Assembly: GCA_016283945.1 (NCBI GenBank)
Contig: JAEENW010000155.1
Coordinates: 1 to 36,444, forward strand
From: Bacillota bacterium
GTDB lineage: Bacteria > Bacillota > Clostridia > Peptostreptococcales > Anaerovoracaceae
Length of the DNA stretch: 36,444 nt
Reading direction: 5' to 3'
Position numbers and translations under genes: made by a program. Positions 17,278 through 22,224 of the stretch are shown piece after piece (within the stretch, counting starts at the first letter, position 1; every line of letters starts with the position of its first letter). The notes beneath the pieces are model-generated. The model had not been told where the DNA came from. It did not search any database and was given only the letters and a program-made list of their open reading frames with translations.

Positions 17278-19200
17278 ATGAAGGGTTACAAGACCGAGAA
17301 CATCAGAAACATCGCTCTGCTCGGGCACGGCAGCAGCGGCAAGACCACCTTCCTTGAGGCCGGTCTCCTCGCTACCGGAGTCATCACCAGGCTCGGCCGC
17401 GTCGAGGACGGAAACACCGTATCCGACTTCGACAAGATGGAGATCGAGAAGGGTTACTCCATCTCCGCCACCATGGTCCCCGTTGAGTACAACAAGGTAA
17501 AGATCAACTTTATCGACACTCCGGGCGTGTTCGACTTCGTGGGAGAGGTCAATTCCGCTCTCAGAGCCGCCGAGGCCGCAGCCATCTTCGTGGACGCTTC
17601 CTCCGGTATCCAGGTCGGAACCGAGAAGGCCTGGAATTACTGCAAGGCCGCCGGCATGCCCAGGTTCTTCGTCATCAACAAGATCGACAAGGACAACGTC
17701 GACATCAGCAGTCTCATCTCAGAGCTCGGGGGAAAGTTCGGCAGCTCCGTCATGACCATGGACGACACCGACTCCATCAACGAGGCGATCGCCGAGACCG
17801 ACGAGGCTCTCATGGAGAAGTTCTTCGAGGGTGAGGAGTTCACCGAGGAGGAGTTCAACAACGGACTCAAGGCCGCTCTCAAGCTGGGCGACATCTGCCC
17901 GGTATTCACCTGCTCCGCCGTCAAGGGCACCGGAGTCAAGGAAGTGCTCGACGCCATGATCAAGTACGTTCCGCATCCCGAAGGGGCCGCCAAGACCGTC
18001 GAGGGCGAAGCCGAGTACGGCGCAGGTCCGACCGCTGCCTTCATCTTCAAGACCATCGCCGATCCGTTCCTCGGAAAGATCTCCCTCGCTAAGGTCGTCC
18101 GCGGCAAGCTGACCCCGGCCATGATGCTCTACAACCCGACCGCTGAGAAGGAAGAGAAGCTCGGCTCCATGTTCTTCATGAGAGGAAAGACTCAGGGAGA
18201 CTGCCCCGAGGCCGTTCCCGGAGACATCGTGGCTCTCGGAAAGCTCCAGTACACCCAGACCGGCGACACCCTCTGCGACAAGGGCAGCATCGTGAGATTC
18301 GCTCCCGTGGAGTATCCGCAGCCGACCCTCTTCACCGCCATCGAGCCGAAGGCCAAGGGCGACGACGCCAAGGTAGCCGCGGGCATCGCGAAGATCAGGG
18401 AAGAGGATCCCTCCTTCGTATATGAGAGGAACGCCGAGACCCGTCAGTCGCTGCTGGGCACCCAGGGCGACATCCAGGCGGGCATCATCCTCTCCAAGCT
18501 CAAGGACAGGTACGGCGCCGACGTCGAGACCGTTCCCCAGAAGGTCGCTTACAGAGAGACCATCAAGGGCACCTCTGACGTCCAGGGCAAGCACAAGAAG
18601 CAGACCGGCGGCAGCGGCCAGTACGGCGACGTCTACGTCAAGTTCAGCCCCAGCACCGAGGAGTTCGAGTTCGCCGACGAGACCGTAGGCGGCTGCGTCC
18701 CCAAGCAGTTCATCCCCGCGGTCGAGAAGGGCCTCAGGGAGTGCATGGAGAAGGGTCCCCTCGCCGGCTGCAAGTGCCAGAACATCAAGGCCACCCTTTA
18801 CTACGGCTCCTATCACGCCGTAGACTCCGATGAAATGTCCTTCAAGCTCGCGGCGTCCATCGCCTTCAAGAAGGGCATCCAGGAGGCTAAGCCCTGCCTG
18901 CTCGAGCCGATCATGAAGGTCAAGGTCGTCGTTCCCGACGATTACACCGGAGACGTCATGGGCGACATGAACAAGCGCCGCGGCAGGATCATGGGAATGA
19001 CCCCGATGGCCGGCGGACTGCAGGAGCTCGACGCCGAGGCTCCGCAGGTCGAGCTGTTCAGCTACGCCAACGACCTCAGGGCGATGACCCAGGCCAGAGG
19101 CTCCTTCACGATGGAGTTCGAGCGCTATGAGGAGGTCCCCGGAAACCTCGCCACCAAGATCATCGAGGCCCACAAGGCCGAGGAAGAGGCGAACGCCTAA
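17278..19200 (+). CDS. EF-G-like GTPase (FusA paralogue), 640 aa
   Basis: P-loop GHGSSGKT, DTPGVFDF, NKID; EF-G domain IV/V-like C-terminus. Confidence 0.9.
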   Translation: MKGYKTENIRNIALLGHGSSGKTTFLEAGLLATGVITRLGRVEDGNTVSDFDKMEIEKGYSISATMVPVEYNKVKINFIDTPGVFDFVGEVNSALRAAEAAAIFVDASSGIQVGTEKAWNYCKAAGMPRFFVINKIDKDNVDISSLISELGGKFGSSVMTMDDTDSINEAIAETDEALMEKFFEGEEFTEEEFNNGLKAALKLGDICPVFTCSAVKGTGVKEVLDAMIKYVPHPEGAAKTVEGEAEYGAGPTAAFIFKTIADPFLGKISLAKVVRGKLTPAMMLYNPTAEKEEKLGSMFFMRGKTQGDCPEAVPGDIVALGKLQYTQTGDTLCDKGSIVRFAPVEYPQPTLFTAIEPKAKGDDAKVAAGIAKIREEDPSFVYERNAETRQSLLGTQGDIQAGIILSKLKDRYGADVETVPQKVAYRETIKGTSDVQGKHKKQTGGSGQYGDVYVKFSPSTEEFEFADETVGGCVPKQFIPAVEKGLRECMEKGPLAGCKCQNIKATLYYGSYHAVDSDEMSFKLAASIAFKKGIQEAKPCLLEPIMKVKVVVPDDYTGDVMGDMNKRRGRIMGMTPMAGGLQELDAEAPQVELFSYANDLRAMTQARGSFTMEFERYEEVPGNLATKIIEAHKAEEEANA

Positions 19201-19215
19201 TAACGAGTCAACGAT

Positions 19216-19251
19216 GGGGGAGCTGCCTCGGCAGCTTCCCCTTTGTTTTTT
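19216..19251 (+). terminator. Intrinsic terminator after the EF-G-like gene
   Basis: GGGGGAGCTGCCTCGGCAGCTTCCCC followed by TTTGTTTTTT. Confidence 0.92.
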
Positions 19252-19275
19252 CGGAAGAAAAGAGGAAATATCCGA

Positions 19276-20595
19276 ATGAGCATACTTGAAAGAGCAAGAA
19301 AATACGAAGATTACGTCATCTCCATGAGGCGCCGCTTCCACGAGGAGCCGGAGCTCTCTGGAGCCGAGTTCAAGACCATGGAGAAGATCGGCGCCGAGCT
19401 CACGGCGATGGGTCTCGAGCACGAGGAGGTCCCAAACGGCGGCATCGCGGCATTCATCCGCGGCGGAAAGGCCGAAAGAGACGCGGCCGGACGCGCCGGC
19501 AGGACCGTGCTCCTCAGGGCCGACATGGACGCGCTCCCCGTGGAGGAGCAGCAGAACCTGAACGGCACGAGGCAGTGCTTCTCGAAGATCCCCGGCGCCA
19601 TGCACGCCTGCGGCCACGACGGCCACACCGCGATGCTCCTCGGCGCCGCGAAGATACTCGATGAGATGAAGGCTGAGCTCGCGGGCGACGTCGTGCTCTG
19701 CTTCGAGAGGAGCGAGGAGACCCGCACCCCGGCGGGCGCGAGGTACATCTGGAAGTGGCTCGCCGACAAAGGCATCGAGCCCGACAGCTGCTACGGCACC
19801 CACGTGTTCTCCAACCTCGACAGCGGCATCGTCGGGATCAACGACGGGCCGATGATGTCCGGCATCAGCCGCTTCGACATCACCATCACCGGCAAGGGCG
19901 GACACGGCTCGCGCCCCGACCAGTCCAACAATCCCATAGACTGCTTCGCCATGATATATCAGCGCATGGAGGCGCTCAGGCTGCTGAAGAACGATCCGTT
20001 CAAGTCCGTGACCGTGTCCGTCGGCAAGCTCCAGAGCGGCATGCAGATCAACGTCATCCCCGAGAGCGTGAGCTTCGGCGGGACCGTCCGCTTCTTCGAC
20101 ATGGAGGAGTCCCACAAGTTCATGGACGCCTTCAGGGAGGCCATAGACGGCTGCGCAAAGCTCTGCGGCTGCAGGATAGACTACGACGTCTTCGAGGACC
20201 CGTTCTACATCTCGACCATTAACGACCCCGCGATGGCGCAGTTCGCGCGCAGGGTCATCAAGGAGGACTTCGGCGACGGAAGCGCCCGGCCCTGCGAGCC
20301 CTGGATGGCCTCCGAGACCTTCGGAGGGTATCTCGCGATGTGGCCCGGCGTGATCTGCCTCCTCGGCGTCAGGTCGGAGGAGAAGGGCAGCGGAGCCGCC
20401 CATCACAACGGCAAGTTCGATCTGGACGAGAGCGTCCTCATCAAGGGCTCCGCCGCGGCGGCGGTCTACGCGTCCAGGTTCCTCGCCGAGGGCGGCGGGA
20501 TCGCTGACAGCAGGAAGGGCGGCAAGCTCTCCCTCGAGGAGCTCCTCATCGCGAACCGCGACGACGAAGCCCGCCTCGAGTTCTTCGGAAAGTAA
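19276..20595 (+). CDS. M20 family metallo-amidohydrolase (second copy)
   Basis: MRRRFHEEPELSGAEFKTMEKI; HACGHDGHTAMLLGAAK; FERSEET at the catalytic Glu-Glu site; start moved to ATG 19276. Confidence 0.88.
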   Translation: MSILERARKYEDYVISMRRRFHEEPELSGAEFKTMEKIGAELTAMGLEHEEVPNGGIAAFIRGGKAERDAAGRAGRTVLLRADMDALPVEEQQNLNGTRQCFSKIPGAMHACGHDGHTAMLLGAAKILDEMKAELAGDVVLCFERSEETRTPAGARYIWKWLADKGIEPDSCYGTHVFSNLDSGIVGINDGPMMSGISRFDITITGKGGHGSRPDQSNNPIDCFAMIYQRMEALRLLKNDPFKSVTVSVGKLQSGMQINVIPESVSFGGTVRFFDMEESHKFMDAFREAIDGCAKLCGCRIDYDVFEDPFYISTINDPAMAQFARRVIKEDFGDGSARPCEPWMASETFGGYLAMWPGVICLLGVRSEEKGSGAAHHNGKFDLDESVLIKGSAAAAVYASRFLAEGGGIADSRKGGKLSLEELLIANRDDEARLEFFGK

Positions 20596-20609
20596 GGAGC
20601 CCGCCGCGC

Positions 20610-20770
20610 GGGATGCCGGGCGGCAGGTCCCGCCAAAGACACTTCGCGCGGGTGACGCGAGGAGGGGCATCCCCGCGGGCGAGGAGCGCCCGCACCGCAG
20701 GCCGCGGGGATACCGAGCGGCAGGACCCGCTAAAAGCCTTCCGCGCGGGCGGCGCGAGGAGGAGCATCCC
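20610..20770 (+). repeat. Two tandem 64-nt structured repeat units (20610-20673 and 20707-20770), period 97 bp, separated by a 33-nt spacer containing a hairpin
   Basis: 52/64 identical without gaps; GGGAT...ATCCC outer stem and two internal hairpins in each unit. Confidence 0.8.
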
Positions 20771-20808: not shown

Positions 20809-22224
20809 ATGGCAAAGAAAGCGAAAACAGTCTTCGTCTGCCAGGAGTGCGGCTTCGAGAGCCCCAAGTGGACGGGCCAGTGCCCCGTCTGCAGGGCCTG
20901 GAACAGCTTCGTCGAGGAGAAGGTCGCCGAACCCTCTGACGGCGACGTCAGGCGCCGCGGAGGCGCCGAGGGCGCGTCCGGCAGGAGCCCGCACAGGGCG
21001 GTCGCGAGGCGCATCCCCGAGGTATCCTCCGGGCAGACCACGAGGATAGACACCGGCATAGGCGAGCTCAACAGGGTGCTCGGAGGCGGCCTCGTCAAGG
21101 GGAGCCTCACGCTGATCTCCGGCGAGCCCGGCATAGGCAAGTCGACCATCATCATACAGGCCGCGAGCCGCATCGCGCAGAGCGAGGGGCCCGTGCTCTA
21201 CGTCTCGGGCGAGGAGTCCGAGGAGCAGATCAAGATGCGCGCCGACCGCGTCTGCGAGGGCGACCTCAGCGAGCTCTACGTGGTCTCCGAGACCGACATA
21301 GACGCCGTCATCCCCCTGCTCGACAGCCTGCAGCCGAAGTTCCTCGTCATAGACTCCATACAGACGATGTTCACGGAGGACCTCGAGTCTGCTCCGGGCA
21401 GCGTCTCGCAGGTCAGGGCCTGCGGCAATATACTCATGAACATAGGCAAGGGCCGCGGCATACCGGTCTTCATCGTGGCGCACGTCACGAAGAGCGGTGA
21501 GCTCGCGGGGCCCAAGATCGTGGAGCACATGGTCGACACTGTGCTGCACTTCAGCGGCGAGCGCAACCAGGACCTCAGGATACTCCGCGCAAACAAGAAC
21601 CGCTTCGGCACTACCTCGGAGATCGGAGCCTTCGAGATGCGCGAGGAGGGCCTCGTTCAGGTCGAGAACCTCTCGGCGAGCTTCCTCGAGGGGCTCGGCG
21701 ACGGAGAGGACGGAGCGGTCGCGACTGCGGTCTACGAGGGCACCAGGCCACTCCTCCTGGAGATCCAGGCTCTCACCGCGGCGACGAGCATGGGCTTCCC
21801 GAGGCGCACCGCCATAGGCATCGACGGGCCGAGGCTCGCGATGATAGTCGCCGTCCTGGAGAGAAAGGCCGGCCTGAACCTCATCAACCGCGACATCTAC
21901 GTGAACGTAGTGGGCGGCCTGAGGCCTGAGAGCACCTCCCCGGACCTCGCGGTGGCGCTGGCCATATGGTCGGACGAGAAGAACGCGAGGATCCCGCGCG
22001 ACACCGTCGTGATAGGCGAGGTCGGGCTCACGGGCGAGCTGAGGCCGGTGCAGAACGCGGACAAGCTGATACGCGAGGCGGACCGCATGGGCTTCAGGCA
22101 CATGATCCTTCCCAGGAGGAGCCTCGAGCGCTCGAGGGAAAAGACGGAGAAGCTCGAGCTCTACGGCGCGACGACCCTCAGGGACGCGATCGCTGCGGCA
22201 GAGCGGCTCGCGAAGCGCGGCTGA
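20809..22224 (+). CDS. radA: DNA repair protein RadA
   Basis: 471 aa; C4 zinc motif CQECGFESPKWTGQCPVCRAWNSF; GEPGIGKST; KNRFG. Confidence 0.97.
   Translation: MAKKAKTVFVCQECGFESPKWTGQCPVCRAWNSFVEEKVAEPSDGDVRRRGGAEGASGRSPHRAVARRIPEVSSGQTTRIDTGIGELNRVLGGGLVKGSLTLISGEPGIGKSTIIIQAASRIAQSEGPVLYVSGEESEEQIKMRADRVCEGDLSELYVVSETDIDAVIPLLDSLQPKFLVIDSIQTMFTEDLESAPGSVSQVRACGNILMNIGKGRGIPVFIVAHVTKSGELAGPKIVEHMVDTVLHFSGERNQDLRILRANKNRFGTTSEIGAFEMREEGLVQVENLSASFLEGLGDGEDGAVATAVYEGTRPLLLEIQALTAATSMGFPRRTAIGIDGPRLAMIVAVLERKAGLNLINRDIYVNVVGGLRPESTSPDLAVALAIWSDEKNARIPRDTVVIGEVGLTGELRPVQNADKLIREADRMGFRHMILPRRSLERSREKTEKLELYGATTLRDAIAAAERLAKRG

Follow-up and report, generated by a model that had tools for sequence, protein, structure and literature searches.

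An array of a dispersed 83-nt palindromic repeat upstream of radA in a Bacillota genome, probably a REPIN/BIME- or MITE-like non-autonomous element

The window analysed here, a 36,444-nucleotide stretch of Bacillota DNA, contains a 213-nt spacer between a gene for an M20-family peptidase and radA. Repeat units lie in this spacer in the layout (B)-S-A-M-B-S-(A), and the features of the locus are as follows.

19276..20595, plus strand: upstream gene, M20-family peptidase/amidohydrolase (Pfam PF01546, PF07687)
20610..20633, plus strand: incomplete B half (GGGATGCCGGGCGGCAGGTCCCGC) belonging to a truncated unit on the upstream side, by similarity to the B half of full copies
20634..20647, plus strand: spacer S1 (CAAAGACACTTCGC), like the 13-15 nt spacer between tandem copies elsewhere in the genome
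20648..20730, plus strand: full A-M-B unit, the 83-nt imperfect palindrome that defines the repeat (R1, 93.4 bits; R2, 94.4 bits), with ends as in the isolated copies L007, L009, L010, L014 and L015
20648..20674, plus strand: A half, GCGGGTGACGCGAGGAGGGGCATCCCC (alignments A2 and A3)
20675..20705, plus strand: M, an apical stem-loop with a covarying stem and the conserved loop GAGGAGCGCCYGCACCGCA (alignment A3), including a spacer hairpin described earlier
20706..20730, plus strand: B half, GGGGATACCGAGCGGCAGGACCCGC, roughly an inverted A half (alignment A3)
20731..20744, plus strand: spacer S2 (TAAAAGCCTTCCGC), like the spacer S between tandem copies elsewhere in the genome
20745..20770, plus strand: incomplete A half belonging to a truncated unit on the downstream side (blastn against the unit consensus)
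20809..22224, plus strand: radA, separated by 78 nt from the full unit upstream (AAA_25, Zn_ribbon_LapB and ChlI domains; RadA relatives)

On the minus strand, a 983-codon antisense open frame (window 17719-20670) has its start in the repeat and runs across the M20-peptidase and fusA-like genes; it is probably a high-GC artefact.

A preliminary description of this locus had reported two 64-nt units, at 20610-20673 and 20707-20770, which indeed align without gaps at 52 of 64 positions with a period of 97 bp. The match is real and far exceeds chance, as 300 first-order Markov resamples of the 213-nt spacer yielded no gapless 64-nt self-match above 38. The hairpin GCGGGCG-AGGAG-CGCCCGC was correctly placed, starting at 20675, and unit 1 folded alone forms the three-way junction that had been proposed (-34.6 kcal/mol, z -3.1); unit 2 is weaker (z -1.8). 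Folded as a whole, the spacer surpasses its shuffles by a modest margin (z -1.93), and the minimum free energy structure pairs differently: the outermost halves pair with each other and enclose a long central hairpin (20648-20730). This 83-nt unit has the same ends as isolated copies elsewhere and is offset from the 64-nt pair; the two-unit frame is not the natural one. Each of the 64-nt units corresponds to B-S-A, and the 97-bp period arises because an 83-nt unit is followed by a 14-nt spacer S (13-15 nt between tandem units). In this architecture, two inverted REP-like halves, A and B, flank a conserved stem-loop linker, M, with the short spacer S joining neighbouring units. Strong GC-rich hairpins between two co-directional genes might also suggest an intrinsic terminator between the peptidase gene and radA; we regard this as extremely improbable, as no T run follows either unit and copies elsewhere also lie antisense to co-directional gene pairs.

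The genome that carries the window is a draft of 1,817,210 bases in 236 contigs, 95% complete. The preliminary description had proposed a BLASTn-type search for scattered copies as a check on its idea of an RNA element; searching the genome with the spacer gave roughly 20 matching places at E<1e-4, spread over many contigs and on either strand, a result that tells against that idea. By covariance model, 14 full-length copies are present, in addition to partial ones. Both phases occur alone, A-M-B as well as B-S-A, the latter as pieces without M at L013, L016 and L017. A second subfamily (L008, L011, L014 and L015) shows GGGGCTCCCC / GGGGAGGAGCC instead of GGCATCCCC / GGGGATACC. Several contigs start or stop within the repeat (L176:4098, L177:1 and L182:3601), so that the copy number is probably underestimated. 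The carrier genomes described below are likewise fragmented drafts in which some contigs end within the repeat, and repeats of this kind may add to contig breaks in such assemblies.

Other repeats were also seen. A GC-rich repeat of ~500-700 bp lies around several palindrome copies (L173:10157-10864, L178:275-790, L181:952-1202 and L182:3139-3495) and had no match in Rfam. Its L173 and L178 versions are up to ~90% identical, and at the same point of the repeat L173 has ~140 bp more of palindrome units. An inverted duplication of ~290 bp (L174:1663-1940 and L174:10091-10376, 79%) comes with a B-S-A piece and a terminator-like hairpin, and a 280-bp direct repeat (L178:3087-3366 and L178:4218-4497, 85% identical) is not related to the palindrome.

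DNA and model searches found related units in five further genomes of the same family (G071, G126, G192, G038 and G114). The alternative offered by the preliminary description, a genome-specific REP-like repeat, was thus close to right in calling the repeat REP-like and wrong in confining it to one genome. Carriers make up 6 of the 351 sampled genomes of the family, in 4 of 93 genera, and even in the own genus only two of six genomes have the repeat. Across the class, the own genome was the sole match among 388 genomes, under strict filters by which weak matches can be lost. A plasmid collection gave nothing beyond short matches in unrelated high-GC organisms, and a phage collection held no match to the repeat. 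By their RadA proteins, the relatives are gut and rumen Bacillota metagenome-assembled genomes (MAGs), some labelled Clostridia or Family XIII.

Covariation among the copies supports a hairpin. Across 19 sequences placed on a hand-assigned hairpin, 92% of cells are paired and 31 are double-change cells, against 11 in shuffles. (A structure from RNAalifold on alignment A2 was set aside in favour of the hand-made hairpin, the two subfamilies being misaligned there.) In a larger set of 31 copies, drawn from the six genomes together, the paired cells amount to 94%, 13 pairs are changed on both sides and 77 cells carry double changes, whereas shuffles give 7.6 such pairs and 22.2 cells and none of 500 reaches either value; these numbers are biased towards the structure, as the alignment was fitted to the model. 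The signal is lost once the partners are slid by 1-3 columns. As the stem pairs covary strongly, we consider the hairpin conserved, and the word 'structured' in the preliminary description is upheld, although the structure belongs to a repeat and not to a regulator of radA.

Within the hairpin, the P1 stem is GGGT/ACCC with a variable outermost pair, and the bases flanking P1 form 79 Watson-Crick pairs, compared with 56 when flanks are swapped among copies (p 0.0002, in a control that ignores relatedness). The M stem occurs as CGTCC/GGACG, GCGC/GCGC and GATC/GATC. Reading the sequences, we found the internal loop, 5' GA / 3' GCAGG, kept in representatives of all six genomes and varied in some own-genome copies, for example with GG for GA; the apical loop is nearly invariant across most carriers. 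Such a fold, with an invariant internal loop and a near-invariant apical loop, conserved above the level of a REPIN spacer, makes some selected function possible.

Could that function be regulation of radA? The preliminary description had suggested an unnamed RNA element, with riboswitches as a comparison. Read in this way, the locus would be a cis-acting regulatory RNA of radA (a riboswitch or protein-binding leader) whose tandem domains recall the glycine riboswitch. The covarying stems and the invariant internal loop would suit such an RNA, as would the position of the unit, which in this window, in G192 and in G038 lies in sense orientation a short way ahead of radA, polA and dnaK, respectively. 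The closest relative examined (G068) has a RadA 84% identical and the same gene order, with a fusA-like gene, the M20 peptidase and radA, and its M20-peptidase/radA spacer is 75 nt long without the repeat, compared with 213 nt here; this is one relative, in which loss is possible. The G068 genome had no credible R1 match (best E 1.9), and 80 radA loci from other species gave no model match. No Rfam family matched at the gathering threshold, with nothing convincing at E up to 10 (nadA, P37 and Bp1_781 were dismissed as sub-threshold chance matches).

The surroundings of other copies bear on the same question. We counted orientations over the 25 full copies outside G126, using our own codon-based gene caller, in which a few flanking calls are weak; G126 was omitted for its unreliable gene calls (wrong-frame high-GC ORFs). 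None of the 25 lies inside a called gene, and the family is thus multi-copy and extragenic, as REP, BIME and REPIN sequences are. Relative to co-directional neighbours, 12 copies are sense and 9 antisense, the other four lying at contig edges or between convergent genes. The identified neighbours, among them hisS/aspS, rimP/nusA, yebC/polA, grpE/dnaK and topA/hslV, with a B-S-A piece between dacA and uvrC, are unrelated housekeeping genes with no common function. Neither association with radA nor strand is conserved, as other radA loci are without the repeat and orientation is mixed. Because copies are dispersed beside unrelated genes in both orientations and are absent at the other radA loci examined, we reject the RNA-element reading for radA; it is largely refuted and we hold it very unlikely. 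The radA spacer should accordingly not be catalogued as a candidate riboswitch.

In G114, each of the five copies is enclosed in a unit of 166-168 bp that ends in 27-bp terminal inverted repeats (GGTGGAGAGGGACGGTTCTCCTCCACC; GGTGGAGAGGGACGG...), with unrelated flanks, a MITE-like organisation. These elements are at L154, L156, L159, L162 and L165, and three of the five directly adjoin a probable Shine-Dalgarno sequence for the following gene. In the window, the unit ends GCGGGT...ACCCGC give the short, non-coding repeat terminal inverted repeats of its own. Near their ends, 4 of the 22 isolated copies carry a direct repeat of 4 nt or longer, where shuffling predicts 1.3; neither an excision product nor a clear target-site duplication was detected. 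No transposase occurs among the identified immediate neighbours of the copies. The REP transposase profile PF01797 (RAYT/Y1) had no match in G000, G071, G126 and G038 and was sub-threshold in G192, all drafts 79-98% complete. A RAYT/Y1_Tnp protein as mobiliser was set aside on this basis; G164 has one, yet no detected copy of the repeat. The manner in which copies spread is therefore inferred rather than observed.

Taken together, we conclude with a probability of roughly 0.8 that the locus is a tandem array in which one full unit of a dispersed 83-nt palindromic repeat stands between two partial ones, and that this repeat is a non-autonomous element of REPIN/BIME- or MITE-like character. Direct support comes from the dispersal of the repeat in many copies with common unit ends, its position between genes on either strand, its patchy distribution over genera, the repeat-free radA spacer of the closest relative and the covarying hairpin. 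Against this reading stand 14 full copies, a low number for a REP family, the missing GTAG tag, the failure to find a REP transposase in the carriers searched, an excision product or a clear target duplication, and loops more conserved than the spacer of a REPIN. Such an element would accumulate between genes, its copies perhaps arising by transposition of hairpin-forming DNA with a transposase acting in trans, and tandem arrays could gain and lose units through recombination or slippage with the 97-bp period. Any effect on radA would be at most passive, as a stem-loop in the M20-peptidase/radA transcript that might influence mRNA processing, stability or polarity.

A role for the transcribed hairpin itself is compatible with a mobile origin. 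The element could provide a binding site for a host protein, or a processing or stability signal for mRNA within operons, as has been proposed for REP and ERIC sequences. Many copies do lie in apparent operons (hisS/aspS, rimP/nusA, grpE/dnaK and topA/hslV, and the B-S-A piece in dacA/uvrC), and the internal and apical loops are conserved on stems that covary and include G-U pairs. However, the near balance of 12 sense and 9 antisense copies sits poorly with selection on a transcript, and recent spread or selection on a DNA hairpin can also give conservation; we consider such a selected RNA role conceivable but rather unlikely. More speculatively, and with little confidence, the 83-nt unit might be a compact structured nucleic acid whose internal loop (5' GA / 3' GCAGG) and apical loop are recognised by a specific protein, which could be a non-RAYT hairpin-dependent transposase or a host RNA-binding protein giving the dispersed copies a common post-transcriptional role.

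Among known systems, REPINs are REP doublets that form hairpins, occur as singletons and ordered tandem clusters, and are associated with RAYTs (PMC3116915), and classical REPs bear a GTAG tag (PMC3733652). The present repeat resembles REPINs and BIMEs (PMC3116915, PMC2817692) in its hairpin-forming inverted repeats around a linker, as halves, folds and covariation all indicate, in its extragenic location as singletons and ordered tandem clusters, and in its compensatory changes. Unlike them, the 83-nt unit of the window contains neither GTAG nor CTAC, the searched carriers yielded no RAYT/Y1 transposase, the sequence of the linker M is conserved as well, and full copies number 14 instead of >100. 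With no tag and no transposase found, we do not file the repeat as REPIN/BIME despite the similar way in which it would work. CGTC-tagged palindromic repeats likewise have no dedicated transposase and form subfamilies with alternative complementary stem residues (PMC3733652), but CGTC (GACG on the plus strand) is not at the unit end here and is lost in many own-genome copies; the main text of that survey mentions neither Firmicutes nor Clostridia (PMC3733652). The failure to find RAYT in the carriers searched raises the question of what spreads such hairpins without it.

Two further groups share other traits. BOX elements of Streptococcus pneumoniae are also modular composites that cluster between genes and have a predicted RNA fold, and they too belong to a Gram-positive lineage (PMC3049150); they differ in sequence and module plan (boxA-boxB(n)-boxC) and are reported with terminal inverted repeats and target-site duplications (PMC3049150). 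ERIC and other prokaryotic MITEs are, like this repeat, short (<200 bp), intergenic, non-coding and stem-loop forming (PMC10969869), and the G114 version adds terminal inverted repeats; unlike them, the repeat described here is GC-rich, with no parental transposon found (PF01797 and immediate neighbours examined) and no clear target duplication. The literature searched held no description of such a repeat in this family of bacteria. It is best read as a new family, patchily distributed in uncultured gut Bacillota (related MAGs being placed in Clostridia/Family XIII), within the broad class of short intergenic palindromic repeats that takes in REPIN/BIME-like, MITE-like and BOX-like elements.
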